Shown here one piece after another: positions 4,904 through 33,944 of a stretch of DNA of 34,862 nt. The stretch spans positions 1 through 34,862 of the forward strand of contig VGJV01000001.1 in NCBI GenBank assembly GCA_016867315.1. Direction: 5' to 3'. The notes beneath the pieces were generated by a model, which saw nothing but the letters and a program-made list of their open reading frames with translations, made no database searches and was not told where the DNA came from. Positions within the stretch are counted from its first letter, which is position 1; every line of letters starts with the position of its first letter. The DNA is from Candidatus Liptonbacteria bacterium. GTDB taxonomy: Bacteria > Patescibacteriota > Minisyncoccia > UBA6257 > 2-01-FULL-56-20. Both the position numbers and the translations under genes were made by a program.

Positions 4904-4931
4904 TGATAACCGATAACTTATGACTAATGAC
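4904..4931. repeat. Heptamer array, TGATAAC class
   Basis: Four consecutive 7-mers fill the start of the gyrB-secE gap: TGATAAC, CGATAAC, TTATGAC, TAATGAC. They begin 8 nt after the gyrB stop. The units are related but imperfect. This is one of about eleven heptamer arrays in the window. Confidence 0.6.
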
Positions 4932-4959
4932 AAGAGGATGGAGCCCTAAGCATAAGCTC

Positions 4960-4988
4960 TTGCGCTTTTAGCATGAGTCTGGTATAAA
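4960..4988 (+). promoter_or_regulatory. Candidate sigma70-type promoter for secE-nusG-rpsR
   Basis: TTGCGC (4960-4965) and TATAAA (4983-4988) are separated by 17 nt, upstream of secE in the only gap of this block. A second AT-rich candidate -10 (TATACT, 5002-5007) lies closer to the gene. This is a consensus match by eye only. Confidence 0.4.
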
Positions 4989-5046
4989 GAACCGAACTGT
5001 TTATACTATTTTATTGAGCAACGGGTTCGCCCATCACAGTATTCGT

Positions 5047-5235
5047 ATGTTTTCCAAGACCAAAAAATTTTTTAAAGAATCTCGCGAAGAGCTTCAGCAT
5101 GTGAATTGGCCCACGCGACAAGAAGCAATTCGCCTCACTACTATTGTTATCGGCATTTCATTGGCCCTTTCTATCTTTTTAGGAGCCTTTGACTCTGCTT
5201 TTAGCACCCTTATTCGAACCCTTATTACCCGCTAA
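5047..5235 (+). CDS. secE: Preprotein translocase subunit SecE
   Basis: 62 residues from the ATG at 5047 (a TTG at 5014 is open but adds an unlikely extension). The conserved SecE region FFKESREELQHVNWPTRQEAIRLT is followed by one membrane span, TIVIGISLALSIFLGAFDSAF. SecE clamps SecY in the SecYEG channel. Its TAA overlaps the nusG ATG by one base (TAATG), so the two are translationally coupled, the classic secE-nusG pair. Confidence 0.95.
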   Translation: MFSKTKKFFKESREELQHVNWPTRQEAIRLTTIVIGISLALSIFLGAFDSAFSTLIRTLITR

Positions 5236-5795
5236 TGACTAAGAAACTCGAAGCGCAACAGGATAACGGCCAGCGGGATTGGTATGCCGTACAAACCTAC
5301 TCCGGATACGAGGAGGCCGTAGCTCGCTACCTTAAGCAGCGTATCGAGTCCTTGGCGATGGGAGACAAAATCTTCAACGTGATCGTGCCCAAAGAAAAGC
5401 GGATTCGCGTAAAGAGCGGCCGCCGGCAAACTATCGAAGAGAAGATTTATCCCGGCTATGTGCTCGTAGAGATGATCCTTACCGAAGACTCGTGGTATGT
5501 GGTACGGAATACTCCACGCGTTACGGGCTTTGTGGGTCCTGACAACACGAAACCAACCCCCCTTTCCAAGGCGGAAGTGGAATCCTTACTCTCGCGCATC
5601 GGACAGGATGAGAACAAATTCACCCTCGATTTGAAGGTGGGAGATTTGGTAAAGATCATCGACGGGCCTTTCAAAGAATATGACGGGAAGGTATCGGAAG
5701 TGGATGAAACCAGAAACCGCGTAAAAGTAATGGTGCCCATCTTCGGACGGGACACCGCAGTCGAACTTGACTCCCTGCAGGTAAAAAAGCTATAA
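5235..5795 (+). CDS. nusG: Transcription termination/antitermination factor NusG
   Basis: 186 residues. The N-terminal NGN domain has DWYAVQTYSGYEEAVARYL and YPGYVLVEM...WYVVRNTPRVTGFVG. The C-terminal KOW domain has VGDLVKIIDGPFKEYDGKV and ends AVELDSLQVKKL. It binds RNA polymerase and couples transcription to Rho or ribosomes. The start overlaps the secE stop. rpsR follows after 7 nt, whereas rplK is the usual partner in many bacteria. Confidence 0.97.
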   Translation: MTKKLEAQQDNGQRDWYAVQTYSGYEEAVARYLKQRIESLAMGDKIFNVIVPKEKRIRVKSGRRQTIEEKIYPGYVLVEMILTEDSWYVVRNTPRVTGFVGPDNTKPTPLSKAEVESLLSRIGQDENKFTLDLKVGDLVKIIDGPFKEYDGKVSEVDETRNRVKVMVPIFGRDTAVELDSLQVKKL

Positions 5796-5802
5796 ACTTC
5801 CC

Positions 5803-6006
5803 ATGCCTCAACAGTGTTTTTTCTGTTCGCAAAACCTTACCAATATCGACTATAAAGAAGTCGACCTTTTGAAGCGCTTTATCTCAAGCCAAGCGAAGAT
5901 CATCGACCCGAAGCACACCGGAATCTGCGCTTCACACCAGCGGAAATTGTCCGAAGCGATAAAACGGGCACGTTTTCTTTCGCTTCTGCCCTTCGTCCGC
6001 CGATAA
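5803..6006 (+). CDS. rpsR: 30S ribosomal protein bS18
   Basis: 67 residues. It has the S18 core IDYKEVDLLKRFISSQAKIIDPKHTGICASHQRKLSEAIKRARFLSLLPF, ending in basic RR. An N-terminal CxxC (CFFCSQN) plus a Cys before SHQRKL suggests a zinc-binding form. S18 binds the 30S platform with bS6. It lies 7 nt after nusG and is followed by a strong terminator, closing the operon. Confidence 0.97.
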   Translation: MPQQCFFCSQNLTNIDYKEVDLLKRFISSQAKIIDPKHTGICASHQRKLSEAIKRARFLSLLPFVRR

Positions 6007-6023
6007 CCCTCTTCTCGCACACG

Positions 6024-6049
6024 AAAGCCGCTAGAACATAGCGGCTTTT
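6024..6049 (+). terminator. Rho-independent terminator after rpsR
   Basis: A perfect 10-bp stem AAAGCCGCTA / TAGCGGCTTT with loop GAACA ends in a short T run, 18 nt after the rpsR stop. It closes the secE-nusG-rpsR operon. Confidence 0.9.
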
Positions 6050-6109
6050 ATGGTCGGCGGCGGCGCCTCTTTATTTTCATAGAAGCGGCGCTTGCGATTC
6101 TTGTCTCGC
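6050..6109 (+). repeat. Perfect 60-bp direct repeat, copy 1 (orphan)
   Basis: Identical base for base to 6276-6335, which codes for an internal piece of the PAP2 protein (GRRRRLFIFIEAALAILVS). This copy begins immediately after the terminator and ends 24 bp before the likely PAP2 ATG. It is therefore a displaced copy of coding sequence in the 5' leader. Perfect identity suggests a recent event or an assembly artefact. Confidence 0.9.
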
Positions 6110-6133
6110 TTTGTTATTCTTTTTCTAACGTCC

Positions 6134-6736
6134 ATGGAATTCAACACGCTGTTCGCCGAATGGCTTTGGAGCTTCAGTTTGAAAAACAGCTTCCTCGATT
6201 GGGAAATTATTTTTTTCTCTAAATATCTCCCCTACATTCTTATACTTTCCTTCCTAGGATTTCTTCTTGCCGAACATGGTCGGCGGCGGCGCCTCTTTAT
6301 TTTCATAGAAGCGGCGCTTGCGATTCTTGTCTCGCGCGGTCTTGTTACCGAAGGTATACGATTTTTTCATCATGTCGCCCGGCCTTTTGAGGTTTGGCAG
6401 GTTATCCCCCTTGTACCCGAGACGCTGGGGAATTCCTTTCCTTCCGGTCATGCAACATTCTATTTTGCCCTGGCCACAGTGCTCTTTCTTCGGAATCGAA
6501 AATGGGGAATCTGGTTCTTTATTTTCGCGATCATAAACGGCTTTGCCCGCATTGCCGCAGGCGTACACTGGCCGATGGATGTGGTGGGTGGAGCTGCAAT
6601 CGGAATCGCTTCTGCGGGAATAATTCACTTGCTTCTTAGACGGTCCTCGGAAGAGTTAATGCTTAGCGACATGCCCTCTGCATCTCCTCGTGAGGTTGAG
6701 TCGGATTTGCCTGCTCAGGAAAAAAATACTCTTTAA
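6134..6736 (+). CDS. PAP2-family membrane phosphatase
   Basis: About 200 residues from the ATG at 6134; a TTG at 6092 inside the upstream repeat is a less likely start. The PAP2 signatures are present: RFFHHVARP (the family Kx6RP with Arg for Lys), FPSGH, and ARIAAGVHWPMD (the SRx5Hx3D motif with Ala for Ser). Several membrane spans surround them. Likely substrates are undecaprenyl pyrophosphate (BcrC-like) or other lipid phosphates. The charged C-terminal tail is cytosolic or disordered. It is followed 2 nt later by a DoxX-like gene, so the two form an operon. Confidence 0.88.
   Translation: MEFNTLFAEWLWSFSLKNSFLDWEIIFFSKYLPYILILSFLGFLLAEHGRRRRLFIFIEAALAILVSRGLVTEGIRFFHHVARPFEVWQVIPLVPETLGNSFPSGHATFYFALATVLFLRNRKWGIWFFIFAIINGFARIAAGVHWPMDVVGGAAIGIASAGIIHLLLRRSSEELMLSDMPSASPREVESDLPAQEKNTL
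6276..6335 (+). repeat. Perfect 60-bp direct repeat, copy 2 (inside PAP2 gene)
   Basis: The coding copy of the repeat also found at 6050-6109, offset by 226 bp. It encodes the second membrane span and the arginine stretch before it. The sequences on either side of the two copies do not match. Confidence 0.9.
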
Positions 6737-6738
6737 AT

Positions 6739-7170
6739 ATGGAGTCCTTTCTTCATAGGCTTTTCCCCGAAGAGAGGCTCGTCACTATTTTACGGTGGAC
6801 GCTGGGCATTATTTTTATTTGGTTTGGAATTTTAAAAATAGCGGGATTCAACCCCGTATTCGATCTTATCCACTCCGTGACTCCGTTTCTTGCGAGCGGC
6901 ACGGGTCTCATATTGCTCGGAAGTTTTGAAGCAGGGATTGGGATGCTCCTTCTTCTGAATCATTTTCTTTTCCTCACCCATCTCCTTCTCCTTGGACACC
7001 TCGCGGGGACCTTTCTCACCTTCATCATGGGGCCGGAGGTTATTTTCTCCCCCTACTTCCCCGTTCTTTCCCTCTCCGGAGAATTCGTGGTCAAAAACAT
7101 CACGCTCGTCATGGCGGGATTGCTCGTACTCATGCACGAGGTGAAGAAACGCGGGTGGTATAAAAATTAG
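6739..7170 (+). CDS. DoxX-like/DUF417-like four-span membrane protein
   Basis: 143 residues with about four hydrophobic spans: LRWTLGIIFIWFGILKIAGF, GTGLILLGSFEAGIGMLLLL, LTHLLLLGHLAGTFLTFI and NITLVMAGLLVLM. The WFGILKIAGF and SLSGEFVVKNITL patterns resemble the DoxX superfamily, especially YkgB/RclC-type DUF417 proteins. Its biochemical role is not established. It follows PAP2 by 2 nt. Its stop overlaps by 4 bp the stop of the convergent Nudix gene on the other strand. Confidence 0.75.
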   Translation: MESFLHRLFPEERLVTILRWTLGIIFIWFGILKIAGFNPVFDLIHSVTPFLASGTGLILLGSFEAGIGMLLLLNHFLFLTHLLLLGHLAGTFLTFIMGPEVIFSPYFPVLSLSGEFVVKNITLVMAGLLVLMHEVKKRGWYKN

Positions 7171-20355: not shown

Positions 20356-20404
20356 GATGTTAAGCTTTTTGCAAACAACTTAACATCGTAATATCTGATG
20401 TTAA
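20356..20404. promoter_or_regulatory. Three GATGTTAA sites upstream of the Fic gene
   Basis: GATGTTAA occurs at 20356-20363 and 20397-20404, and in inverted form (TTAACATC) at 20380-20387, all in the 65-bp gap before the Fic start. The first two form an inverted repeat, ATGTTAAG...CTTAACAT. The last copy overlaps the PEPC stop codon. Likely an operator, possibly bound by the Fic protein's own winged helix. Confidence 0.5.
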
Positions 20405-21957
20405 CCTAAGCTCTTTCGGAGAACTCCGGTTTCGGTGATAAGGCCGGAGAGGCGTGACCCGCCGTCGCTTGCCTGCACTTCGCCGAAGGCTCCGGCAAGG
20501 CGGGCGCTATGGCGTGGCAAAGCAAAAACACTCGAAGATAGCCTCTCGTGCATCAGTTCGGATTTCGAGCGGGGGCCGAGCTCAAAACCGAATATCGACT
20601 CCACCACTCCCAAATCTTCTTCCACCCGCGCCCACGCGGGGTTTTGTTTAATAAGCCGCTTCAAATTTTCCTTATTCACGAAAGCCCCGGCGGTCTTCAG
20701 ATCGGCTTCTATATTGCGGTAATACCGGAAGAGAAGCTTCATCGCTTCGGGAGATAAGTCTTTCAAGGCGCGAAGGCCTAAAAATTCCGGCGGGATGCCA
20801 ATCGAATAGAACGCGGCGGTAAAGTTGATCGCACGCGGGAGTTCGAGTTTCCCCATTTGGCGCGCGTACCGCAAAAGACCAATGTGCTGGCGACGTTCCC
20901 GGCGACGCGGGACCGCCCGAAAGAACTGCTCCATGTCCCCCGCAATACTTTGGAGCGTGTGCGCATAGGAGGCTTCGAACTGTTTAATAATGGAAAGGAG
21001 CACGGCGCGGTCTTTTTCGGAGACGGAGCCGGGAGCGGATTTCGGCAAAAGAGTATTCAATTTTTCTACCGCAGCGGCGGCAGCTTCGAAGTTATAATCG
21101 TAGCGAAAGGCGGATTGAATCGTCACCGTGCGCACGCCTTTATATTCCGACGCAAAGGAGTCGATCGCATCGGGATTCAATCCCCCGCGGAACGGCAGGC
21201 TGCCCGCCCCCAAGATCGGGAACATCCGCACCTTTTCCCTCTCCCCCACTTCGCGGATATCTGAAAGAGCGATTTTGTTCGCGAGCACCGTCGAGACAAT
21301 TCCCGATACAAGCGCGGGATCGGAACGCGCAAGGAACGGCCGGATATATACGGGCTTGGATTTGAATTCTTTTTTGTGAAGATCGATGTAGCGCGCGAGA
21401 AGCGAGCCCACGCCGAGCTGACGCTCCACGTTTTCGACGAGCGGAATCATGTCTAGCTGTTCCATGTTTACCCCGCTCCGGTGATTGAAGGTCTCCGTCT
21501 TGAAACGCGCGAGTTTGCGGAAAGAACTTTTTATGTACATTAACTCTTCGGGTTTTTCGGTCATCGGCAGAATGAGTTCGAAGAGCGGGGGGACGTGAAA
21601 CTTCAAGTCTCGCGCGAAGTCTTCGGCGGTCAATACCACCATGAGCGCGCGAAGCAAGGAGTGGCCTTTTTCTTTCCATACGTTCGGAATCCGGAATGTA
21701 AGAAAAATATCTTTTCCTAATTTGTGTTTTTTAAAATATTCGTGGAATTCACCGAAAAGACGATCTACGACAGCCTCATCCGCATATTTCCCCTCCCAGT
21801 CCCACATGAACTCCCCTACTCCCAATTCTTCAAAACACTTCACGCATTCGAGCGTTTCTTCGCGGCTGCTTATGAATGCATCTCCTTGCTTGTCCCAAAA
21901 AGGCGCCCGGGCGTTGTCCGGGTGCTGGGTGGCCATGGCGGAGGGAATGTGGCGCAT
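20401..21957 (-). CDS. ppcA: Phosphoenolpyruvate carboxylase, archaeal type
   Basis: 518 residues, about half the length of the bacterial enzyme and right for the archaeal type. Hallmarks: MATQHPDNARAPFWDKQGD at the N-terminus, the GEFMWDWEGKYADE segment, FLTFRIPNVWKEKG, ILPMTEKPEEL, and GAGSLPFRGGLNP, which holds active-site residues. It carboxylates PEP with bicarbonate to oxaloacetate. The aspartate-type aminotransferase nearby could use that product, though this is only context. Its start codon abuts a heptamer array and has no Shine-Dalgarno. Confidence 0.95.
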   Translation of the reverse strand: MRHIPSAMATQHPDNARAPFWDKQGDAFISSREETLECVKCFEELGVGEFMWDWEGKYADEAVVDRLFGEFHEYFKKHKLGKDIFLTFRIPNVWKEKGHSLLRALMVVLTAEDFARDLKFHVPPLFELILPMTEKPEELMYIKSSFRKLARFKTETFNHRSGVNMEQLDMIPLVENVERQLGVGSLLARYIDLHKKEFKSKPVYIRPFLARSDPALVSGIVSTVLANKIALSDIREVGEREKVRMFPILGAGSLPFRGGLNPDAIDSFASEYKGVRTVTIQSAFRYDYNFEAAAAAVEKLNTLLPKSAPGSVSEKDRAVLLSIIKQFEASYAHTLQSIAGDMEQFFRAVPRRRERRQHIGLLRYARQMGKLELPRAINFTAAFYSIGIPPEFLGLRALKDLSPEAMKLLFRYYRNIEADLKTAGAFVNKENLKRLIKQNPAWARVEEDLGVVESIFGFELGPRSKSELMHERLSSSVFALPRHSARLAGAFGEVQASDGGSRLSGLITETGVLRKSLG

Positions 21958-22010
21958 AGAAATAGAAAGTAGAGAGTAGAAAGTAGAAATTAGAGTAGAA
22001 AGCAGAAGGG
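21958..22010. repeat. Heptamer array, TAGAAAG class, abutting the PEPC start
   Basis: Plus-strand units TAGAAAG, TAGAGAG, TAGAAAG, TAGAAAT, TAGAG, TAGAAAG, CAGAAG, mostly 7 nt with occasional 5-6-nt units. It begins at the PEPC start codon with no gap. The PEPC leader therefore reads as a pyrimidine-rich (CTACTTT)n. Confidence 0.75.
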
Positions 22011-22050
22011 CAGGATAACTCTCAGATCTTCGCCATTATACTCTCCCGGA

Positions 22051-22077
22051 TAACGAATTACGAATGAGGAATTACGC
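22051..22077. repeat. Heptamer array, CGAATTA class
   Basis: Units CGAATTA, CGAATGA, GGAATTA, then CGCTTA, just after the stop of the ABC ATPase gene (reading the minus strand). The same unit class occurs at 25731-25763. Confidence 0.6.
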
Positions 22078-22755
22078 TTATTTTTTCCTTACGTCTCCTA
22101 CAATTTGGCCGTCTTTGATTGAGAGGACGCGGCGGGCGTGGCGCGCATACTCTTCTTCGTGCGTTATCATCACGATCGTTTGGCCTTCTTTATGCAGCGC
22201 CTTAAAAGCTTCCATCACGAGCTCGCCATTTGTCGAATCCAGGTTCGCCGTGGGTTCATCTGCGAAAAGGACGTGGGGGTGATGCGCGATCGCGCGGGCA
22301 ATCGAGACTCGCTGCTGCTGCCCGCCGGAGAGCTGACTCGGGAGGTTCACGCGCTTATCGAGAAGCCCCACCCGCTCGAGCGCTTTTCCCGCGCCTTTCA
22401 AAGCCGCTTTCTTATCCATCCCCTGCATGAGCATCGGGAGCGCCACGTTTTCTTCCGCAGTTAACTCGGGAAGAAGGGCGTAGTCCTGGAAGACGAACCC
22501 CATCCGATTCAATCTGAGGGCCGTTCTTTCGGCCTGACTTAAGAGGCTCGTGTCGATATCGTCAAAATGGACTGTCCCCGAGGTCGGCTCGTCGAGGAGC
22601 GAGAGCTGATACAAGAGCGTGGACTTCCCCGCGCCCGACGGGCCCACGATCGCAAGGAATTCACCATCTTCAATTTCTACATTCAAACTTTTGAGCACCG
22701 TGAGCTGAAGCTCGCCCTCTCCGTATGCCTTTACCAGCTTATGACTCTTTATCAT
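22078..22755 (-). CDS. ABC transporter ATP-binding protein, LolD/MacB type
   Basis: 225 residues. Walker A GPSGAGKST, Q-loop FQDYALLPELTAEENV, signature LSGGQQQRVSIARA, Walker B VLFADEPTANLDS, H-loop IVMITHEEEYA. The sequence around DEPTANLD is typical of the MacB/LolD/FtsE branch. It pairs with the FtsX/MacB-like permease encoded 4 nt upstream. The system probably moves lipoproteins, peptides or other substrates by mechanotransmission. Confidence 0.95.
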   Translation of the reverse strand: MIKSHKLVKAYGEGELQLTVLKSLNVEIEDGEFLAIVGPSGAGKSTLLYQLSLLDEPTSGTVHFDDIDTSLLSQAERTALRLNRMGFVFQDYALLPELTAEENVALPMLMQGMDKKAALKGAGKALERVGLLDKRVNLPSQLSGGQQQRVSIARAIAHHPHVLFADEPTANLDSTNGELVMEAFKALHKEGQTIVMITHEEEYARHARRVLSIKDGQIVGDVRKK

Positions 22756-22759
22756 GTGA

Positions 22760-24058
22760 TTATCTGCCTAAAATGGCATCGAGCGTATTCCGACGGACAA
22801 TGAGTTTCGCAGGGAGATAGCCTGCAAAAAGGGTTACGGCCATAAGGATCGCGACGCGCAGCGCGGCCCCCGTGGGAGTAACCACGAGAATGCCATCGGA
22901 GAACGGAAAGTCGATGGGGTTCGCCGCAAAATAGGGCTCCAAGAAACCGAAGGTGAGCAGCACCCCGATCAAGCAACCGAAGAATCCATAAAAGAACGCT
23001 TGGAACACGTAGGAGAGTTCGATGGCGCGGGGACTCACTCCAATCCCCTTCATGATGCCTATAAACTTTCTTTTCGTGACCGCGTTAATGAAAATTACGA
23101 TAAACACCGTGATGCTCGCCACGACCACGCCGATCGAGGAAAGAGCATTTCCCAACACGCCGAAGGTGGTTTCTATGTCGCGCAGGAAAGAAGGGATCGC
23201 TTCATCCGAGGTCTGCACGCGCGCCGCATAGGAACCCATGAAGGTTTTGATTTCTTCGACGAGCCGCGGGGCGTATTCCAGATCCGTGCGCACCGCAATT
23301 TCCTGAAGCTGTTCCTTATTTATAGGGAGGAGACGCCGCAGTTCCTGATTCGAGATGAACATGCGCGTCGAAATTTCATCCACCTTGCTCTTCACGATGC
23401 CTTTGATAATAAAATCCTTCCGCACTATTCCCCCATCTTTGCGGGACAAGGTCATCCGCACACGGCTCCCCACATCCACGTCGTCCAAAAGATCGAGTCC
23501 CGGAATGTTCGCATCGGCGAAGGCGGAATATTTTTTGAGCAGGTTCGCGCCTATGAGCATGTATCCTTCTTCTCCCGGGGCGAGATGCTCTCCGTATTTC
23601 AAGAATCGGGAAAAGCCCGTCACCACTTCTTCCCGCTCGACATCGATACCCATCACTCTCATCGAGAGCTGATTCGGCCGTTCATTTTTCTCCGGAAGCC
23701 GCGTCAAGGTCCCCAAGACCGTCACTCCCGCGCCATATCGCGGAGAAAAAGCTTCCACTTTCGGATGGCTTTCGAGGAAGTTCACAAGCGCGGGCGAGTT
23801 TTCGATATGATCCATCCCCTCCGCCGCAGTGATGATCACCTCGCCGGAATATGCATCGCGAAACTGCACGAAAGAACCCGTGATGAGTCCCAAAAGCAGG
23901 CCCGAGACCACGACGAGGTTCAGGAACGTAAGCACCATTATGAAAATAATGAGGGCGGTCGTGCCTTTCCCGGAGCGCTTAATCTGACGCAACGCCAAAA
24001 ACCACCCTACTCGGAGAGCGTGGAAATATTCTCGCTGCAGTGCGCGAAGCTTTTTCAT
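22760..24058 (-). CDS. ABC transporter permease, FtsX/LolE/MacB-like
   Basis: 432 residues. An N-terminal span (TTALIIFIMVLTFLNLVVVSGLLLG) leads to an extracytoplasmic domain of about 230 residues (SGEVIITAAEGMDHIENSP...). Three C-terminal spans follow (ASITVFIVIFINAV, AFFYGFFGCLIGVLLTF, ILMAVTLFAGYLPA). KRKFIGIMKGIGVSPRAI is the coupling segment of the FtsX family. It forms the channel half of the exporter with the ATPase gene that follows after 4 nt. Confidence 0.93.
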   Translation of the reverse strand: MKKLRALQREYFHALRVGWFLALRQIKRSGKGTTALIIFIMVLTFLNLVVVSGLLLGLITGSFVQFRDAYSGEVIITAAEGMDHIENSPALVNFLESHPKVEAFSPRYGAGVTVLGTLTRLPEKNERPNQLSMRVMGIDVEREEVVTGFSRFLKYGEHLAPGEEGYMLIGANLLKKYSAFADANIPGLDLLDDVDVGSRVRMTLSRKDGGIVRKDFIIKGIVKSKVDEISTRMFISNQELRRLLPINKEQLQEIAVRTDLEYAPRLVEEIKTFMGSYAARVQTSDEAIPSFLRDIETTFGVLGNALSSIGVVVASITVFIVIFINAVTKRKFIGIMKGIGVSPRAIELSYVFQAFFYGFFGCLIGVLLTFGFLEPYFAANPIDFPFSDGILVVTPTGAALRVAILMAVTLFAGYLPAKLIVRRNTLDAILGR

Positions 24059-24098
24059 TCCTCCCTATTCTACTCAAAAGGAGGAGTAATGAACAGAA

Positions 24099-24503
24099 TT
24101 ACTTGGCGTTCGGATCAGGCTGGTGAATGCCGAACGTGTTGCCCTCAGTATCGATAAAGTACCCTTGCCAGGCCATGCCGCCCAAGGCGAACTTCGGCAT
24201 TGCCACCTTACCTCCCGCTTGCTCGATCTTTTTCGCAATCTCGTCGAAGTTCTCTACTTGCACCGTACACGCGTAAGCGTTCGTCCCCTGCTCCAAGGCC
24301 GGCGCGGGACACGGGCGCTTTAGAAGCCCGCCGTTGATCCCGAGCTCTTTGCTCTCTTTGGGCGCTGTCATAATCCCCCAGTATTCCGATCCCGCCACTT
24401 TGCTCCAATCCGTAAATTCCCAATCGAACACGTCACCGTAGAATTTTTTGGCGCGAGAGACGTCGTCCGCTTGGATTTCGAAATGCACAACCCTATTAGA
24501 CAT
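24099..24503 (-). CDS. VOC-family protein
   Basis: 134 residues: VVHFEIQADDVSRAKKFYGDVFDWEF, then YACTVQVENFDEIAKKIEQAGGKVAMP and WQGYFIDTEGNTFGIHQPD. H6, the central region and the final FGIHQ match the VOC fold of glyoxalase-like/YyaH-type proteins. It is a paralogue of the protein at 24963-25346 (shared FYGKVFDWEFKDW and KKIEQAGGKV patterns), so a local duplication is likely. A TAGAAAG heptamer array directly precedes the ATG and there is no Shine-Dalgarno. Confidence 0.88.
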   Translation of the reverse strand: MSNRVVHFEIQADDVSRAKKFYGDVFDWEFTDWSKVAGSEYWGIMTAPKESKELGINGGLLKRPCPAPALEQGTNAYACTVQVENFDEIAKKIEQAGGKVAMPKFALGGMAWQGYFIDTEGNTFGIHQPDPNAK

Positions 24504-24530
24504 ATGGATAGAAATTAGAAAGTAGAAAAT
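24504..24530. repeat. Heptamer array, TAGAAAG class, abutting a VOC start
   Basis: Directly after the VOC start codon: ATGGATAGAAAT, TAGAAAG, TAGAAAA. The junction string ATATGGATAGAAA recurs exactly at the cupin gene start (25685-25697). Confidence 0.7.
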
Positions 24531-24534
24531 ACGA

Positions 24535-24909
24535 CTACTTGCCGTCGACGATTACTTTGAAACCTCCGTAGGCCATGCGTTTTATATCGAAGGGCATCTC
24601 CGGCATATTCTTGTCATTGTAATGCTCCTCCATTTCCGCCATCACTTTTTTGTTCACCTGATCGCGGTGGGCGCGGGATTTGTAGACGATATATGAGAAC
24701 CACACCGTTTCGTTACTTTTCGACTTTGCCATTTTAGGAAACTGAAGCGCGGGCATTCCTTTCATGTCTGGACGCAGATCATCGCCCATGCATTCCTTAT
24801 AATCCAAAGCGCCGTGCTTCTTCCACATTTTCGCTCCCTCTTTTGCCATCTTGCGATACGTTGCCACATTCTTTTTTGGAACCACTAACACAAAGCCGTC
24901 TACATACAT
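24535..24909 (-). CDS. DUF1428 (YbaA-like) protein
   Basis: 124 residues: MYVDGFVLVVPKKNVATYRKMAKEGAKMWKKHGALDYKECMGDD opens the ferredoxin-like fold of DUF1428. VWFSYIVYKSRAHRDQVNKKVMAE and PFDIKRMAYGGFKVIVDG complete it. The function of the family is unknown; relatives resemble small dimeric alpha-beta barrel proteins. It is between two VOC genes and is preceded directly by a heptamer array. Confidence 0.9.
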   Translation of the reverse strand: MYVDGFVLVVPKKNVATYRKMAKEGAKMWKKHGALDYKECMGDDLRPDMKGMPALQFPKMAKSKSNETVWFSYIVYKSRAHRDQVNKKVMAEMEEHYNDKNMPEMPFDIKRMAYGGFKVIVDGK

Positions 24910-24948
24910 TGATTAGAAATTAGAAATAGAAAGTAGAAAGTAGAATAT
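24910..24948. repeat. Heptamer array, TAGAAAG class, abutting the DUF1428 start
   Basis: Units TAGAAAT, TAGAAA, TAGAAAG, TAGAAAG, TAGAATA in the 53-bp gap. It starts 3 nt from the DUF1428 ATG. The gene has no Shine-Dalgarno, and its leader is (CTACTTT)n. Confidence 0.7.
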
Positions 24949-24962
24949 CTACTTAGGTTCGA

Positions 24963-25346
24963 CTATTTTTTCGCGCTTTCCCACAACGCAAACTCATTAC
25001 CCTCGGGGTCGGTGAAATCGGCCATGAATCCCCACTCACCGAGTTTATGCTTCGGCGCCGTGACTTTTCCACCCGCCTGCTCGATCTTTTTTATGGTTTC
25101 GTCTATCGAGTCTGTCTGTATTACCATCGAAGGGCGATCATTTGGAGATTTCCTTTTATAAAATCCACCATTAATACCGCCGGGTTCCGTGGGATGGCCA
25201 TCGTTATCCGAGGCAGTCGTACGCGCCTCGAATCCCTCGTCTCCCCAATCTTTGAATTCCCAATCAAACACTTTCCCGTAAAAATCCTTTGCTTTTTTGA
25301 AATCCGAGATGGGAACTTCGAAATTGGTTACTTTGTTTTTGTTCAT
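24963..25346 (-). CDS. VOC-family protein
   Basis: 127 residues: VTNFEVPISDFKKAKDFYGKVFDWEFKDW, then PSMVIQTDSIDETIKKIEQAGGKVTAPKHKLGEWGFMADFTDPEGNEFALWE. A glyoxalase/bleomycin-resistance-like fold; the usual first His is Asn-Phe-Glu here, so metal binding may differ. It looks like a paralogue of the VOC protein at 24099-24503. The substrate is unknown. Confidence 0.88.
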   Translation of the reverse strand: MNKNKVTNFEVPISDFKKAKDFYGKVFDWEFKDWGDEGFEARTTASDNDGHPTEPGGINGGFYKRKSPNDRPSMVIQTDSIDETIKKIEQAGGKVTAPKHKLGEWGFMADFTDPEGNEFALWESAKK

Positions 25347-25396
25347 TGAATTATGAAAAGCGAATTAATAATTTCGCTTCGACTTTATATATACTA

Positions 25397-25687
25397 TCAT
25401 GCTGCTTCGTAGGATCGTTTCGTTCCCACGATCATACTTCCTTCGGTGACGCCGCCCTTTGCCTTATGCGTGGTCCCGGCTTTAAATTCCACCCTGTCGC
25501 CTGTGCGAAAAGTCTTCGAACCCTCCTCATCGGTGATCGTGAGTTCACCACTCAAAATAATGTGCACCGTGTGATCCGGATGCGTATGTTCTCCCGCTTC
25601 GAATCCCGGAGCAATAGGAACCACGCGCACGTTTGAGAATCCTTCTTTTTCTAACTCTTTGATCCAGCCCTCGGCTTGTTCAAGCAT
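25397..25687 (-). CDS. Small single-domain cupin
   Basis: 96 residues. Cupin motif 1 is GEHTHPDHTVHIILSGELTI, with metal-binding His residues; motif 2 is GDRVEFKAGTTHKAKGG, with the last His ligand. Small cupins of this kind bind a metal and serve as isomerases, dioxygenases or sensors; none can be assigned. It is encoded downstream of the Nudix pair and is preceded by a double heptamer array. Confidence 0.88.
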   Translation of the reverse strand: MLEQAEGWIKELEKEGFSNVRVVPIAPGFEAGEHTHPDHTVHIILSGELTITDEEGSKTFRTGDRVEFKAGTTHKAKGGVTEGSMIVGTKRSYEAA

Positions 25688-25765
25688 ATGGATAGAAAGT
25701 AGAAGTTAGAAAGTAGAAAATAGAATATCCAACGAATTACGAATAACGAATTGCGAATTACGCTT
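25688..25765. repeat. Double heptamer array: TAGAAAG class then CGAATTA class
   Basis: From the cupin start codon: ATGGATAGAAAG, TAGAAGT, TAGAAAG, TAGAAAA, TAGAATATCCAA, then CGAATTA, CGAATAA, CGAATTG, CGAATTA. Two unrelated 7-mer classes lie head to tail in one gap. The 25766-25829 remainder holds no gene. Confidence 0.75.
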
Positions 25766-25829
25766 CGCGTCGCAATTCCAGAACCATCATTCACAATCGT
25801 AAGGGCTTTGGATGAAGTTATGGAGAATT

Positions 25830-26276
25830 TTACAGCTTGCCCTCTTTAATAAGCTCAATTGAAGATTTGCCGATTTGAGCCTTATATACTGCTTCGGGCA
25901 AATTTTGCAGTGCATCCTTAATTCGCTCTAATTGTTTCGGGGAGGTATTCTTTGGAATTTCTTCGAGTTTAAAGTAGCCGAACTCGTCCATTTCCTCAGT
26001 GGGCTTTATTTCTCCCGCTACTCGTCTACATAGGAAAGAGAATATTACGTCATTCTTTTCAGGTTTTCCGTACACACCCAAGAGCTTTACAATTTCTACT
26101 TCTAAACCTGTTTCTTCTCTCACTTCCCACTTCGCACAGTCCCACGGCGTCTCCCCTTCTTCCATTCCCCCGCCGGGCAAATTCCATAAATCATAATCGC
26201 GCCGATGGCAAAGCAACACTCTTTTTTCTTCGTCAAAAATAATTCCGAACGCGGCAATGGTGAATTGAGCTCTCAT
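25830..26276 (-). CDS. Nudix hydrolase
   Basis: 148 residues from the ATG at 26276. It overlaps the upstream Nudix stop as ATGA, which makes it more likely than the longer start at 26312. The Nudix box is GGMEEGETPWDCAKWEVREETGL, with Trp in place of the usual Arg of REUXEE; the metal-binding Glu residues are kept. The N-terminal FTIAAFGIIFDEEKRVLLCHRRDYDLWNLPGG is typical. It forms a translationally coupled pair with another Nudix gene. Confidence 0.88.
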   Translation of the reverse strand: MRAQFTIAAFGIIFDEEKRVLLCHRRDYDLWNLPGGGMEEGETPWDCAKWEVREETGLEVEIVKLLGVYGKPEKNDVIFSFLCRRVAGEIKPTEEMDEFGYFKLEEIPKNTSPKQLERIKDALQNLPEAVYKAQIGKSSIELIKEGKL

Positions 26277-26698
26277 GGAAGCGCGAGATATTCCTGTACT
26301 CCTTTTAACCAACCGCCCGTGAAGTAAGCTTCGGGTTTAAAGGTGTGCTTATCCACCCATTGCATTTCGGGGTGCCGCGCGGAAAGCCGGATATCGCCTC
26401 CTTCGAATGCAGCTTTGTAGCCCAACGCGAAGATTCGTACCGTGGGATTCCCCGGGGCAGCTTCTTTCCGTTCATGGCGCATGTAGACTACCGGTTTTCC
26501 TAACACATATTGGACTTCACTTCCCAATTCTTCCGCGAGTTTGCGCTTCACTACTTCTTCGAGCGGTGTTTCGAATTCACCCGGCAGGAGTCGTCCGCCC
26601 GGTAAATCCCAATCGCCAAAATTATCCTTCACAATAAGGAGCTTCCCATCGTGCTCGAGAAACACCTTTACGGCTACGAAGTATGTGTCCTTTTCCAT
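26273..26698 (-). CDS. Divergent Nudix-fold protein
   Basis: 141 residues. The Nudix region reads GRLLPGEFETPLEEVVKRKLAEELG. Compared with GX5EX7REUXEEXGU it has three extra residues before the Arg and Lys instead of the first Glu, but the AEEL pair remains. Metal binding and activity may be altered. DWDLPGG and VVYMRHERKEAAPGNP are typical surrounding strands. It is coupled to the following Nudix gene by a 4-bp overlap. A heptamer array ends 2 nt before its ATG. Confidence 0.8.
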   Translation of the reverse strand: MEKDTYFVAVKVFLEHDGKLLIVKDNFGDWDLPGGRLLPGEFETPLEEVVKRKLAEELGSEVQYVLGKPVVYMRHERKEAAPGNPTVRIFALGYKAAFEGGDIRLSARHPEMQWVDKHTFKPEAYFTGGWLKGVQEYLALP

Positions 26699-26700
26699 GC

Positions 26701-26730
26701 ACTAGAAATTAGAAAATAGAAAATAGAAGA
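26701..26730. repeat. Heptamer array, TAGAAAG class, at a gene breakpoint
   Basis: Units TAGAAAT, TAGAAAA, TAGAAAA, TAGAAGA. It lies between the Nudix start (26698) and the truncated end of a DoxX-like gene, whose frame runs into the array. Confidence 0.65.
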
Positions 26731-26867
26731 AACCTAGAATCCGGCCCGAGACCAGTCACCACCATAGCCATGCTCGTAAGCTTCATCCACCCGGCGTTCA
26801 TAAACACGATCCCCACCGCTACCCGCACGAATAACAGACCCAAATCGGCATTCTGCAGCCGATGCAT
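26709..26867 (-). pseudogene. DoxX-family N-terminal fragment
   Basis: The frame begins MHRLQNADLGLLFVRVAVGI and continues VFMNAGWMKLTSMAMVVTG, the first span and GW.KL motif of DoxX proteins. It then departs into LGPDSRFLLFSIF, where it reads the heptamer array and stops. The remaining spans (about 90 residues in the family) are missing. No good ribosome site. It looks like a relic left at a recombination breakpoint. Confidence 0.6.
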
Positions 26868-26964
26868 CAAATTGTGCAATTATTGAGGATTAATTATTGT
26901 AATTTTATCACAACCAGCGAAGACATGCGTTGCACAGGGCGTCTCGCAGGACGACGGTCCGAGA

Positions 26965-27003
26965 GGAGAGCGCTGTGGCAGCAGCCGCAGACAGCGTCCC
27001 TCC
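26965..27003 (-). other. GC-rich stem-loop downstream of the TPM-protein gene
   Basis: Plus-strand GGAG, then CGCTGT, then GGC pair with GCC, ACAGCG and CTCC, giving 4+6+3 bp with small bulges. A second small hairpin (GGAC/GTCC) lies at about 26949-26960. It starts 19 nt after the TPM-gene stop. No T run follows, so a simple Rho-independent terminator is not proven. Composition is GC-rich against an AT-rich flank. Confidence 0.4.
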
Positions 27004-27021
27004 GCAATGCATGTCGAGCAC

Positions 27022-27906
27022 CTACCATCCGCCGCTTGCCCCTCCGCCGCCAGAGCGGCCGCCACCGAACCCCCCGAAGCCCCCGCCTCCCCATCTCCCT
27101 CCCCTTCCTCCGCCACCAATCCACCACGGCGGCTTGTGTCCCGTTGCCACACTGTGCTGGTATGCGTGCGAGACGATGTAGTCGAAAAGAAGCCCCAAAG
27201 GAGTAAGGATTGCGATTGCCAATATTCCTGCATAGACAAAGCCGAAAAATAACCCAAGTGCCACTCCGAGCACTCCCCCGATTACACCTCCTAACCACCA
27301 GGATTTGGAGCGGCTCAAAATACTCGCGATCCACATTGGAATCGTGAGGATAACCCAAAACCAATCTACGAATATTTCCGGATTAGGACCTCTTCCTTTG
27401 GTGGCCGTGGGGAGTACCTCTCCTTTTACCGCGGCAATGATTTTGTCCGTCGTGCGTTCTAATCCTGTCGCATAGTTCCCTTCGCGAAACGCGGGTAGAG
27501 CTTCGTTCTGAATAATCCAGTAACTTTGCGCATCCGTGAGCGCACCTTCGAGCCCATATCCCACTTCGATACGAACTTTTCGATCATCGCGGGAGACCAC
27601 CACGAGCACCCCGTTATCGAGTCCTTGCTTCCCTACTTTCCACGCCTCGAAAAGATCCACTGCATATTCCTCTACGGTATCGCCGCCTAAATTCGGTACT
27701 AACGCGAGCGCAATCTCATGGCCGGATTCTTTGGCGAAATTCGAAAGTTTAATTTCGAGAGAGTTCTTTGAAGCTGCATCGAGAAGATTAGCGTAATCAT
27801 TCACGAATCCGGACGGCGCGGGAAATTCTACATGCGCCTTCACCGAAGGCGCAGCAAGTAGCGAGTAGCATGTAGCAAGTAGCAGGAATACTGAAAACTT
27901 TTTCAT
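27022..27906 (-). CDS. TPM-domain (YgcG-like) secreted membrane protein with Gly-rich tail
   Basis: About 294 residues. Signal peptide MKKFSVFLLLATCYSLLAAP. TPM domain FVNDYANLLDAASKNSLEIKLSNF, ...HEIALALVPNLGGDTVEEYAVDLFEAWKVGKQGLDNGVLVVV, ...RKVRIEVGYGLEGALTDA. Two or three spans follow, then a tail of GGGG/GGFGG repeats. TPM proteins such as YgcG sit in the envelope and often accompany LemA, as here. Part of the signal peptide is encoded by a TAGCGAG-class heptamer array. An upstream array separates it from lemA. Confidence 0.92.
   Translation of the reverse strand: MKKFSVFLLLATCYSLLAAPSVKAHVEFPAPSGFVNDYANLLDAASKNSLEIKLSNFAKESGHEIALALVPNLGGDTVEEYAVDLFEAWKVGKQGLDNGVLVVVSRDDRKVRIEVGYGLEGALTDAQSYWIIQNEALPAFREGNYATGLERTTDKIIAAVKGEVLPTATKGRGPNPEIFVDWFWVILTIPMWIASILSRSKSWWLGGVIGGVLGVALGLFFGFVYAGILAIAILTPLGLLFDYIVSHAYQHSVATGHKPPWWIGGGGRGGRWGGGGFGGFGGGRSGGGGASGGW
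27851..27886. repeat. Heptamer array, TAGCGAG class, inside a signal-peptide coding region
   Basis: Units AGCAAGT, AGCGAGT, AGCATGT, AGCAAGT, AGCAGG on the plus strand encode LLLATCYSLLA of the TPM protein on the minus strand. A 26-bp segment (27857-27882) is identical to 33919-33944 upstream of argH. Confidence 0.8.
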
Positions 27907-27907
27907 C

Positions 27908-27942
27908 AATTCTACTTTCTACTTTCTATTTTCTATTTTCTA
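27908..27942. repeat. Heptamer array, TAGAAAG class, inverted orientation
   Basis: On the plus strand it reads CTACTTT, CTACTTT, CTATTTT, CTATTTT, CTAG, filling the gap between the lemA stop and the TPM start. Relative to the downstream gene its orientation is opposite to the other TAGAAAG arrays. Its last unit supplies the lemA stop codon. Confidence 0.7.
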
Positions 27943-28494
27943 GAATTTGACTGAAGGAGCAGTCTCTGCGCCTTCTACAGATTCGAAGTAGGTGCGCTCA
28001 CTGAAGCCACCCAGACGAGCCACGATATTCGTGGGGAAGGTTTTTACTGAAGTGTTCAAGCTGCGTACGGCGTCATTGAAGCGACCGCGTTCCGTGCCGA
28101 TCCGGTTCTCCGTCCCTTCGATCTGTGCCATCAGAGTCTGCACGTTCTCCGCGGATTTGAGCTGCGGATAATTCTCCATCACGACGAGGAGCCGGGCCAA
28201 GGCGCTTTCCACCTCGCCCGCGGCTTTCGCCTTCGCATCTACGGTTCCCGCTCCCGCGTAGCGGGTGCGCGCTTCTGCGATCGCATTGAATACGGCCTGT
28301 TCCTGCTTCATCGTACCCTTCACGGATTCCACGAGGTTCGGGATTAAATCAAAACGGCGCTGATATTGCGTTTCAACCTGCGCCCACTGGCCGTTAATTG
28401 CCTCGTTCTTCCCTACGAGCGAGTTGTAGGTACCTACTCCCCAAAGGAGCACCACCACTACGACTGCTATCAAAATCCACCATCCCTTCTTCAT
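27940..28494 (-). CDS. lemA: LemA family protein
   Basis: 184 residues. One N-terminal span (GWWILIAVVVVVLLWGVGTYNSLVG) leads to the LemA helical domain with NGQWAQVETQYQRRFDLIPNLVESVKGTMKQEQ, ...VESALARLLVVMENYPQLKSAENVQTLMAQIEGTENRIGTERGRFNDAVRSLNTSVKTFPTNIVA. The N-terminus probably faces out with the helical part anchored at the membrane; the role is unknown. The TPM-domain gene follows. htpX, a frequent partner, is divergent 100 bp away, but it is broken here. Confidence 0.96.
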   Translation of the reverse strand: MKKGWWILIAVVVVVLLWGVGTYNSLVGKNEAINGQWAQVETQYQRRFDLIPNLVESVKGTMKQEQAVFNAIAEARTRYAGAGTVDAKAKAAGEVESALARLLVVMENYPQLKSAENVQTLMAQIEGTENRIGTERGRFNDAVRSLNTSVKTFPTNIVARLGGFSERTYFESVEGAETAPSVKF

Positions 28495-28562
28495 ATTTTT
28501 TATTTTACATTACTTTACGTACTGACGACTTTTAATTAGGATAATTATAGGCTATAAAATCC

Positions 28563-28590
28563 AAATTTCAAAGCTCAAATTTCAAATAAA
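28563..28590. repeat. Heptamer array, AAATTTC class, before htpX
   Basis: Four 7-mers in a row, AAATTTC, AAAGCTC, AAATTTC, AAATAAA, end 3 nt before the htpX ATG at 28594. A fifth unit class in the window. Confidence 0.6.
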
Positions 28591-31296: not shown

Positions 31297-31364
31297 TGAG
31301 TGCAATTGTACGGTTTTCCTCGATTCTCGCAATGACTTATGATAATGAGAATAATTTTATAACT

Positions 31365-31841: not shown

Positions 31842-31853
31842 CGAAAGAAAATA

Positions 31854-31879
31854 CAAAAGCCCCTTTCGAGGGGCTTTTG
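31854..31879. terminator. Bidirectional Rho-independent terminator
   Basis: A perfect 10-bp stem CAAAAGCCCC / GGGGCTTTTG with loop TTTCGA has A- and T-rich ends on both strands. It lies between two convergent genes, so it can serve both. Confidence 0.92.
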
Positions 31880-31895
31880 ACTAAGCGTCTTCGGA

Positions 31896-32516
31896 TTAAG
31901 ACTGCGGCAATGGATTCGATTTTCTCTCTCTTTTCCAAAGAATAAATGCGAAGAGTCCTATGAGTACCACTATTGCGATCATTCCATGCCAATTCGTCTT
32001 TCCGGCAATCGAGGCAGTTTGTTTGTCTTTCGCGACAATCTCTTCAACGGACTTTCCTGATTTACTTTCCGCCACTGCGGCGACTGCCGCTGGTTTCTCA
32101 GCCTCTTCCGACTTCACCACTACGGGTTGCACATTGAGCTCGATCGTCGGAGTTACCGCTACCATCGCTTTCTTCGCAGCAACAGGGGTCAAGGTTTCTT
32201 GCACCGCCATGAGTTGCGTACTAAGACCCATAAGTCCTACACCGATTGTCGCCTTCTCCTCCGCCGTAACCGCAGGATCCGCAAGTTTATTCTTTACTTG
32301 AGAGACAAGCGCCGCGGCAGCTTCGAGCGCACGTTTCGCAGCCACTTTGGCTTCGAGTTCCGCAACTGTGGCCTTGAGTGCAGTGATCTGAGCCTGCAAG
32401 GCGGCGGCCTCAGTAGCACTCAGGGACCTCACTCCCGAAGTAACCGTTTGGGCCTTTACCAACCCGCTCTGCATGCCAAGTATGAGCACCGCTATACCAC
32501 AAATAACTTTTTTCAT
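31896..32516 (-). CDS. Exported coiled-coil protein with C-terminal membrane anchor
   Basis: 206 residues from the ATG at 32516. The signal peptide is MKKVICGIAVLILGMQSGLVKA. A coiled coil (ATEAAALQAQITALKATVAELEAKVAAKRALEAA) is followed by an Ala/Val/Glu-rich linker, a membrane span (WHGMIAIVVLIGLFAFILW) and a basic tail KRERKSNP. This suggests an extracellular coiled coil tethered by a C-terminal anchor with the tail inside. Family unknown. Confidence 0.75.
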   Translation of the reverse strand: MKKVICGIAVLILGMQSGLVKAQTVTSGVRSLSATEAAALQAQITALKATVAELEAKVAAKRALEAAAALVSQVKNKLADPAVTAEEKATIGVGLMGLSTQLMAVQETLTPVAAKKAMVAVTPTIELNVQPVVVKSEEAEKPAAVAAVAESKSGKSVEEIVAKDKQTASIAGKTNWHGMIAIVVLIGLFAFILWKRERKSNPLPQS

Positions 32517-32627
32517 TGACTTGTTTACCAATAATTTTCGGCCTTTTTATAAACTCACCACTTCAAAGAACCACCTTCCTTTCACAAGGTATATCCAAAT
32601 AGAACGGCCGTCTAGACTTGCCTGACG

Positions 32628-33914
32628 TTACAATTCCTTGCTCAATTTGTAGGAGTCAAGCTGGAGATTCCCTGGGCCGCCGATCGAGAGCACTTCTTTG
32701 ATCGCCTTCACGGGGTCTTCCACTTTAAGTTCCTGGAGGTGTTCCTTCACATGGCTGTACGCGTCGCGGAAGGGCATCCCCTTCTTCACCAGGCGGTTCG
32801 CTTCATGCACTGCGAAGAACTCCGGCGCCAAGGATTTCATAAGCGCTTCTTTGTTCGGTTTCACCGCAGCCATCACGAGGGCGGTTACCTCCAAACTCCG
32901 CCGCGCGATCCCTAAACCTTTGATCAAGGGCTCCTTTGTGAGCTGCGTGTCGCGGTTGTAGCCGGAGATAAGGTTTTTCGAGATGTCTTTCACCTGCGTC
33001 TGCAAGGCTACGATCACGTTCACATTCCCCCGCAGGATTTCGAAGACGTCGGGGTTTTTCTTCTGCGGCATGATCGAGGAGCCGGTCGTAAACTGCGGAG
33101 GCAGGAAGAAGAGGTTGAATTCGGGGGTTGTAAACCAAATCATTTCGTTCGCAAGTCTGCCCAAGGTCATCATGATCTTCGTGAGCACTCCCAGGATGTA
33201 GGACTCCGTCGGTCCCCGGCTGTTTACGCAGTAGAGCGAATTCTGCTGGAGCCGTTTGAAGCCGAGGAGTTTCGTCGTGAGCTTTCTATCCAAGTTGATG
33301 TTTATACCGAAACCCGCGGCCGCTCCCAAAGGATTTTGGTCATTCAAATCGTAGGCGGACTCCAAAAGCTTGTGGTCGTTAATGAGCTCTTCCAAATACG
33401 CCGCCGCCCAGTGGCCTACGCTCGAAGGCATTGCCCGACGCGTGTGCGTGTAACCCGGCAGCGGAAGAAACTCGTATTTCTTCGCGAGCTTCAAGAACAC
33501 CTCTTGGGTTTTTATGAGTTCGTGGCTAATCTGCTTCAATTTTTTACGCGTGTAAAGACGGGTCGCTACAAGCACCTGGTCATTCCGCGAGCGACAAGTG
33601 TGGATCTTTTTTCCCAAGGTGCCCAGCTTCGCCGTAAGGTACCCCTCGATCGCGGTGTGGCAGTCCTCATCCGAAGGCTGGATCACGAACTTCCCCGCTT
33701 CGTGAAGTTTCAAGATTTCCTTAAGAGCCTTCGTGAGTTTCTGCAGTTCGGAGGCGGTAAGAATCTTCGCTTTATGGAGCGCCTGCGCATGCGCAAGCGA
33801 GGCTTCGATATCGAAAGGCAAAAGACGGGCATCCAAAATGTAGTCGTTCCCTACTGTGTACTTTTCGACGAGCGGGTGAATCTTCGTCGATTTGGATTGC
33901 CAGAGTTTAGGCAT
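32628..33914 (-). CDS. argH: Argininosuccinate lyase
   Basis: 428 residues. HTCRSRNDQVLVATRLY, PLPGYTHTRRAMPSSVGHW (catalytic region with the His/Thr pair), and the fumarase-superfamily signature GSSIMPQKKNPDVFE. It splits argininosuccinate to arginine and fumarate. argG is not in the window, so the pathway is unproven here. A heptamer array starts at the start codon and replaces a Shine-Dalgarno. The downstream gene order on this strand leads into the coiled-coil protein gene. Confidence 0.95.
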   Translation of the reverse strand: MPKLWQSKSTKIHPLVEKYTVGNDYILDARLLPFDIEASLAHAQALHKAKILTASELQKLTKALKEILKLHEAGKFVIQPSDEDCHTAIEGYLTAKLGTLGKKIHTCRSRNDQVLVATRLYTRKKLKQISHELIKTQEVFLKLAKKYEFLPLPGYTHTRRAMPSSVGHWAAAYLEELINDHKLLESAYDLNDQNPLGAAAGFGININLDRKLTTKLLGFKRLQQNSLYCVNSRGPTESYILGVLTKIMMTLGRLANEMIWFTTPEFNLFFLPPQFTTGSSIMPQKKNPDVFEILRGNVNVIVALQTQVKDISKNLISGYNRDTQLTKEPLIKGLGIARRSLEVTALVMAAVKPNKEALMKSLAPEFFAVHEANRLVKKGMPFRDAYSHVKEHLQELKVEDPVKAIKEVLSIGGPGNLQLDSYKLSKEL

Positions 33915-33944
33915 AGCGAGTAGCGAGTAGCATGTAGCAAGTAG
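33915..33944. repeat. Heptamer array, TAGCGAG class, abutting the argH start
   Basis: Units TAGCGAG, TAGCGAG, TAGCATG, TAGCAAG, TAG directly after the argH start codon. A 26-bp segment (33919-33944) is identical to one in the TPM-protein signal-peptide region (27857-27882), 6 kb away. Confidence 0.8.

Follow-up and report, generated by a model that had tools for sequence, protein, structure and literature searches.

The DNA analysed here, 34,862 nucleotides of a Candidatus Liptonbacteria genome (GenBank assembly GCA_016867315.1, contig VGJV01000001.1, positions 1 to 34,862; hereafter the window), carries short tandem arrays of degenerate heptanucleotides, most of them in the gaps between its genes. 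The assembly comprises 878,862 bases in 14 contigs and is 99% complete. Among nine loci of named genomes compared, the one nearest to its 16S rRNA gene comes from a Jorgensenbacteria genome (81.6% across 652 bases). The window was re-read with Tandem Repeats Finder and with separate scans for matches seven positions apart (lag 7). Eleven of the twelve sites listed in a preliminary description of the sequence have a period-7 row in Tandem Repeats Finder, whereas the remaining TGATAAC site has none and is weak (Table 1). TGATAAC is a rotation of TAACTGA, and the three TAACTGA matches of this site were equalled in 20 of 100 shuffles, which is chance level.

Table 1. Heptamer arrays of the window and dispersed hairpin elements of the same genome
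Feature	Position	Strand	Remark
Weak TAACTGA/ATRAC-type array, starting 4 nt past a stop codon	4901..4931	+	lag-7 score 9
CTTTCTA array (TAGAAAG on +), directly 5′ of PEPcase_2 ATG	21957..22007	-	gene 20401-21957, -
ATTCG-type array, immediately past ABC-transporter gene stop	22053..22076	-	below 19/28 threshold
CTTTCTA array, 5′ of glyoxalase-family gene	24504..24528	-	gene 24099-24503, -; below 19/28 threshold
CTTTCTA array, 5′ of DUF1428 gene	24910..24945	-	gene 24535-24909, -
CTTTCTA array, 5′ of cupin gene	25688..25725	-	gene 25397-25687, -
AATTCGT array	25731..25762	-	adjoins CTTTCTA array 25688..25725
TTTTCTA array, 5′ of NUDIX gene	26701..26728	-	gene 26273-26698, -
CTTGCTA array in signal-peptide-like coding start of TPM-domain gene	27853..27884	-	ATG 27906, -
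TAGAAAR array filling the gap between LemA stop and TPM start	27910..27942	-	inverted relative to 27853-27884
GAAATTT-type array in divergent gap	28562..28587	-	simple open reading frame calls
CTTGCTA/CTCGCTA array abutting Lyase_1 ATG	33914..33944	-	gene 32628-33914, -
Hairpin elements of ~100 bp, own genome	L007:5793-5893, L008:1651-1730, L019:18616-18729, L022:10741-10842		

The excess of period 7 over shuffled DNA is marked. The noncoding part of the window (30 stretches, 5,109 bases) holds nine lag-7 segments, while 200 shuffles average 0.08 and reach at most 1; the other lags from 5 to 11 give none, apart from one segment at lag 11. Over the whole window, seven lag-7 segments score at least 12 and none does so in 20 dinucleotide shuffles. 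At that score, no other lag between 4 and 24 yields a segment, except lag 14 with five (the identical arrays) and lag 19 with one. About five unit classes can be recognized, as initially described, and two of them do lie side by side (CTTTCTA and AATTCGT). However, the classes are not all unrelated. TAGAAAG and TAGCAAG/TAGCGAG form one graded family, since the array in the 16S rRNA gene of the same genome reads TAGAAAG TAGCAAG TAGAAAA TAGAAAG. Similarly, the arrays are mostly but not entirely intergenic, as positions 27853-27884 encode the signal-peptide-like start LLLATCYSLLAA of the TPM-domain protein.

With a threshold of 19/28 lag-7 matches, a sample of 434,862 bases of the genome contains 72 arrays at lag 7 and 1 to 18 at each of the other lags from 4 to 12. 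The highest of these, lags 6, 12 and 9, rise above their neighbours and are taken to be codon-related. All but one of the arrays (71/72) span at least 18 nt, and most consist of three to five units. Their cores are diverse (GCTAC, CTAAT, TTCTA, ATTCG, AATTC, ATRAC, ACAAG, GCAAA, AAGCT and others), and a scan of the sample at a score of at least 9 yields 32 canonical units in 61 segments, many being one-letter neighbours. Open reading frames (ORFs) are simple greedy calls which prefer ATG, without a trained gene finder. On these calls, 52 of 71 arrays lie outside ORFs (41 in co-directional gaps, 8 in convergent and 3 in divergent ones) and 19 inside, some of the latter in short or doubtful ORFs. 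Per 10 kb, this corresponds to 15.1 arrays in co-directional gaps, 11.7 in convergent gaps, 3.4 in divergent gaps and 0.5 in coding DNA. Many arrays start at a stop codon and finish just ahead of the next start: the distance to the start is 1-6 nt in 18/47 cases, whereas random placement in the same gaps gives a mean of 8.9 and reached 18 only once in 2000 placements.

The anti-Shine-Dalgarno (anti-SD) sequence CCTCC is absent at its place in 23 of the 24 16S tails that are readable among 30 loci, including the tail of the genome under study, which reads GGAACAATTAAACT where the consensus is GGAUCACCUCCUU. This reading also rules out the 16S tail as a pairing partner of CTTTCTA. A GATCAATTAAACT-like 16S tail stands in place of the anti-SD. 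The sole readable tail with CCTCC belongs to G019, a genome with several partial 16S matches, and this copy may be foreign; in G012, CCTCC occurs further downstream, outside the 16S tail. In the named genomes, CCTCC is present in four of seven tails and absent from three. A survey of 128 organisms without anti-SD (PMC6107228) names mainly Bacteroidetes, Tenericutes and Carsonella, and the word ‘Parcubacteria’ does not occur in its main text. Among the matches listed for the open-access literature, no report of anti-SD loss in Patescibacteria was found.

SD-like 4-mers precede 1/25 array-led genes and 41/360 others, a difference which is not significant (p 0.50). The minimum free energy of the start region is -2.7 in the 25 array-led genes compared with -5.2 in the 360 others (p 5e-5) and -8.9 in gene interiors, and the leader arrays are poor in G (12%). 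Given the loss of the anti-SD, the scarcity of SD-like motifs and the low structure at starts, arrays can occupy the place of the SD. A benefit for translation might follow, and the leader arrays could be functional as such: they would be selected as unstructured, G-poor 5′ leaders which replace the SD and are read by ribosomal protein S1, by a cold-shock protein (Csp) or through their lack of structure. The tight spacing to the starts, the missing anti-SD and the weak folding agree with this explanation, as do the TAACTGA repeats of marine Beggiatoaceae, for which the available part of PMC4679880 describes the same position and rare SD sequences, with S1, Csp and Csr as candidates. We nevertheless rate it as rather unlikely. 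Arrays also occur in convergent gaps (8/71), in ORFs (19/71) and in 16S rRNA, those in syntenic gaps come and go between species, and the units on the sense strand are mixed, since both TAGAA and TTCTA precede starts.

Arrays within genes occupy permissive positions. Fourteen coding stretches were read, of which nine have a match in the congeneric genomes G001 or G002; among the fourteen, one contains internal stops and another a stop after the array. The coding arrays with a match in a relative are located in protein loops, at protein ends or in the signal-peptide-like start. By Pfam family, the host proteins are triosephosphate isomerase and a Mur ligase (two arrays each), a methylase of the RrnaAD family, a UvrD helicase, the TPM protein and a Pfam-less protein, together with the ends of a GtrA-type protein, a G6PD/6PGD protein and an epimerase. 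Compared with the relatives, these arrays mostly substitute loop sequence, and the changes amount to 0-6 residues. The G6PD/6PGD case is an 808-residue ORF (L021:14097-16523) in which glucose-6-phosphate dehydrogenase and 6-phosphogluconate dehydrogenase domains follow each other in a fusion, with the C-terminal end encoded by a heptamer array.

The 16S rRNA gene itself is affected. In the genome under study, the loop that we take to be helix 40 carries an insertion with the TAGAAAG/TAGCAAG array (L241:1856-1945), and 86 nt stand here against two model positions in the Rfam alignment. Helix 40 is readable in 23 of the 30 loci; 17 are expanded and six have the ordinary short loop. Of these 17 expanded loops, which include the one described above, 10 have lag 7 as their best lag, and in nine it exceeds shuffles (0/200 in seven, 4/200 and 6/200 in the other two). 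The units vary among genera, and also between the genome under study and G001. In several loops both arms are arrays which pair with each other. The predicted fold of the G015 helix consists of 5-bp stems alternating with 2x2 internal loops.

A further regularity concerns the orientation of neighbouring arrays. In the three genomes of the genus, neighbours of the same class within 150 bp are inverted in 15 cases and direct in none, whereas pairs on one piece which are separated by over 1 kb are inverted in 26 and direct in 47 (p 2e-6 for close against distant pairs). Inverted pairs also account for six of nine close same-class pairs in other relatives and for 17 of 22 in other phyla (among the matches listed). 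All sets combined, the 46 close pairs divide into 38 inverted and 8 direct, the distant ones into 74 and 96. The detector would merge direct arrays of the same class if they lie very close, and the direct count is therefore lowered somewhat. In the window, the leader and signal-peptide arrays of the TPM gene are mutually inverted around the start codon (27848-27945), and G002 shows the same layout with other units.

Inverted arms also build a dispersed quasi-palindromic element of ~100 bp, which lies twice between convergent genes; its heptamer arms are of CTAAT/ATTAG type and its inner part is CCAATTTCC-like. Four such elements in the sample are alike (Table 1), three similar ones exist in G002, and one syntenic gap measures 111 bp here compared with ~20 bp between the matches in G001. 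These elements could be mobile, spreading in the manner of miniature inverted-repeat transposable elements or repetitive extragenic palindromes, so that solitary arrays would be their remnants. To relate arrays to candidate enzymes, the genome under study and 23 relatives were divided into 14 array-bearing and 10 array-poor genomes, with nine more sampled genomes excluded. This division was made by the author from ~17-40 kb per relative, except for the genome under study, G001 and G002, and some assignments are borderline: G001 (6.8 arrays per 100 kb) counts as bearing, G003 (5.0) as poor, and G023 as poor despite eight TAYTTTC matches. The Y1 transposase, one of four families tested, occurs in 7/14 array-bearing and 0/10 array-poor genomes (nominal p 0.019). 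However, the Y1 transposase was rejected as the cause: Y1_Tnp has no match in the genome under study, nor in G002, where arrays are denser than in the other two genomes of the genus, although a helper might be encoded elsewhere. Many arrays, moreover, are built of other units and lack an inverted partner. Taken as the origin of the arrays, mobile hairpins thus appear distinctly improbable.

The preliminary description proposed one generating mechanism, either slippage or a templated enzyme, or else a protein which reads the 7-bp spacing. A single mechanism agrees with the fixed period, which accompanies many unit sequences and not one selected sequence. The enzyme did not fare as well. A dedicated reverse transcriptase or telomerase-like protein writing 7-nt units would fit a period which is fixed while the unit is free, and would fit a trend of the genus towards five fixed and two variable phases (see below). 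Yet RVT_1 is found in 8/14 array-bearing and 6/10 array-poor genomes and is absent from the array-bearing G002, G006, G021, G025, G027 and G030, so that reverse-transcriptase genes do not track the arrays. The DinB-type polymerase, at 7/14 against 5/10, is likewise rejected as a cause. A templated enzyme is therefore very unlikely. MutS_V has no match in any of the 24 genomes, including the one under study, while 11 of 14 control genomes are positive.

The phase trend deserves a precise description. With the three genomes of the genus pooled (116 arrays), variable phases are adjacent beyond chance (1/5000 permutations), and the arrays with exactly two variable phases show circular distances 1, 2 and 3 in 29, 7 and 13 cases. 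By genome, z is 3.2 in the one under study, 2.1 in G002 and 0.9 (not significant) in G001. As a general law the pattern was rejected: z is -0.5 in the loci of other phyla (69 arrays, among the matches listed), other relatives show it weakly (z 1.8 for 66 arrays, with distances 12:12:5), and reduction to one array per unit family gives a mean z of 1.7 (30 draws, 0.6-2.8), or 0.8 with eight broad families. We regard it as a trend of this genus only.

Between species the arrays turn over. Where a syntenic gap has an array in the genome under study, one is also present in 0/9 cases in G001 and 2/3 in G002; where the gap has none, the relatives show an array in 1/62 and 1/12 cases, respectively. 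An array of related units abuts the same ATG in G002 as the window array at 33914-33944, and the LemA/TPM gap holds arrays in both genomes with different units. Arrays thus appear, vanish or change their unit between species. Across 33 sampled genomes, 21 have at least one array and the density ranges from 0 to 60 per 100 kb, plus 123 in one AT-rich piece of 4.9 kb; these samples are small and AT-rich genomes are noisy, with G020, G031 and G032 also giving hits at other lags. An assembly artefact seems an unlikely source, because separately assembled relatives have arrays, of other units, at matching spots and because Calothrix parasitica NIES-267, whose record is titled ‘nearly complete genome’, shows the pattern as well. 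Several window genes behind TAGAAAG-class arrays are clustered at 20401-27909, where PEPcase_2, two glyoxalase-family, DUF1428, cupin and two NUDIX genes stand together. This cluster is possibly a cassette of acquired genes. When PEPcase_2 was used as a synteny anchor, a search which had no positive control gave no match in seven relatives.

The turnover also bears on the protein which would read the spacing. The omega protein of pSM19035 is a regulator reading 7-bp heptads, and by analogy the arrays might be sites of such a protein. They are heptad arrays 5′ of genes with partly fixed cores. However, 32 canonical units in one sample scan, arrays inside protein-coding and rRNA genes and the turnover between sister species are unlike binding sites, and we give this analogy almost no credence.

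Units are shared between loci. In the 71 arrays, 4.0% of pairs have identical units, whereas random heptamers with that composition would give 0.28%. Five AAGCT-type arrays lie within ~10 kb of one stretch, and an array inside a UvrD-type helicase gene has a 27-nt run in common with an intergenic AAGCT-type array 9.3 kb away. This sharing, including the 27-nt run, calls for copying beyond local slippage. On a wider scale, a triple of TAYTTKC occurs in at least 118 stretches from many phyla, and these loci hold 238 lag-7 arrays compared with 3-28 at other lags, among the matches listed; the loci were picked by the heptamer pattern, which makes up 123 of the 238 arrays.

Taken together, we consider it fairly probable that the arrays are heptanucleotide tandem repeats which arise from an ongoing error of DNA synthesis, by slippage in 7-nt steps, template switching at short homologies and fold-back copying. 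Arrays would grow by slippage and by such template switching, with 7 nt as the favoured step; existing units would be copied to other places, and at short range fold-back priming would copy them inverted. The sharing between loci and the inversion at short range point to template switching or fold-back priming. The products may persist because no MutS was found in the lineage, and purifying selection would set the sites which survive: stop-to-start gaps, protein loops and termini, signal peptides and the helix-40 loop of the 16S rRNA. With MutS unmatched and neither reverse transcriptase nor DinB associated with the arrays, we infer that the ordinary replication machinery is the likeliest agent. 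For the period, the accessible parts of PMC4692102 and PMC4679880 cite the explanation that 7 nt may correspond to the stretch interacting with the polymerase, and such a preference might apply here.

Several observations weigh against this explanation or qualify it. Slippage itself is something we infer, and slippage alone would not yield one unit recurring across loci and phyla; the copying step is derived from shared sequence. Taken by itself, the lag spectrum of noncoding DNA gives a weaker signal than counting arrays does (z at lag 7 is 2.6 in the genome under study, 1.1 in G001 and 2.3 in G002). Identical units are modestly enriched at close range: they make up 5/30 pairs within 1 kb (mean 1.3 and maximum 5 in 300 permutations) and 7/69 at 1-5 kb (permuted mean 2.8, maximum 10). 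Outside the order, among the matches listed, the preference for inversion is not significant (17:5 in close against 20:18 in distant pairs, p 0.10). The fold of the inverted pair at the TPM start is significant in G002 (z -3.4) and not in the genome under study (z -0.9). In helix 40, the lag-7 value of G039 is no better than shuffles, and the G026 expansion has period 9 (16/21; 0/200 shuffles), so that period 7 is not universal. Array-poor relatives lack MutS as well, so that the loss of MutS is not by itself enough to account for the patchy distribution. Lastly, array-led starts have a GC content of 0.30 compared with 0.38, which is partly behind their low structure.

A bolder version of fold-back copying is tentative, and we regard it as doubtful. 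It would be a general process with a 7-nt step in many bacterial phyla, leaving face-to-face heptamer pairs, 5-bp stems parted by 2x2 mismatches and species-specific units. In the Patescibacteria-like order it would build or rebuild helix-40 segments, protein loops and start leaders, and the period would reflect the priming geometry (~5 nt annealed and two unpaired) with no reading protein.

Heptamers of fixed period and several units are already known, and the initial statement that no system with several classes had been described does not stand: the accessible parts of PMC4679880 and PMC4692102 report mixed heptamers in Microcystis and three in Calothrix, respectively. Through these two sources, Mrazek 2007 and the Calothrix work describe period 7 as over-represented and intergenic, with several units per genome and polymerase slippage as the proposed origin. 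The present arrays resemble such short tandemly repeated repetitive sequences (STRR) and long simple sequence repeats (LSSR) in having 7-nt tandem units beyond chance, mainly intergenic and of several kinds. They differ in being short, with many degenerate units, and the inverted pairing and the rRNA location are unmentioned for STRR/LSSR in the portions of both papers available to us.

A close parallel is that of PMC4679880 (MacGregor 2015), whose accessible text covers TAACTGA repeats in marine Beggiatoaceae, Cyanobacteria and Bacteroidetes, with 7-nt indels between strains. There too, arrays end a few nucleotides 5′ of start codons, and SD sequences are described as rare. In contrast, TAACTGA-like units are a minority among the many units here, coding loops and the 16S rRNA are also affected, and close neighbours are as a rule inverted, whereas that text gives one inverted repeat among 170 sets. 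The GGGAATC/GGGGAYT heptamers of Xanthomonas and Nostoc, as presented in the accessible part of PMC4692102, are likewise degenerate and intergenic with lengths that vary between related genomes, but they are of G-quadruplex type, unlike the G-poor leader arrays. Borg-element tandem repeats (PMC9879509) also evolve fast in intergenic DNA and disordered protein parts; Borg elements are archaeal and extrachromosomal, and the abstract gives no fixed period. Contingency loci of phase variation switch surface genes; for the window, Pfam assigns most of the array neighbours to metabolism. As far as literature searches showed, the novel aspects are the arrays in this lineage, the rule of inverted neighbours and the helix-40 expansions built of heptamers which turn over between genera.

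These features have consequences beyond the window. The rule of inverted neighbours is a prediction of fold-back priming which can be measured in any set of genomes. In helix 40, a repeat process appears to shape a ribosomal RNA, and related genera carry different words at one site. Finally, the absence of the anti-SD provides a natural setting in which the leaders of start codons are free to change.

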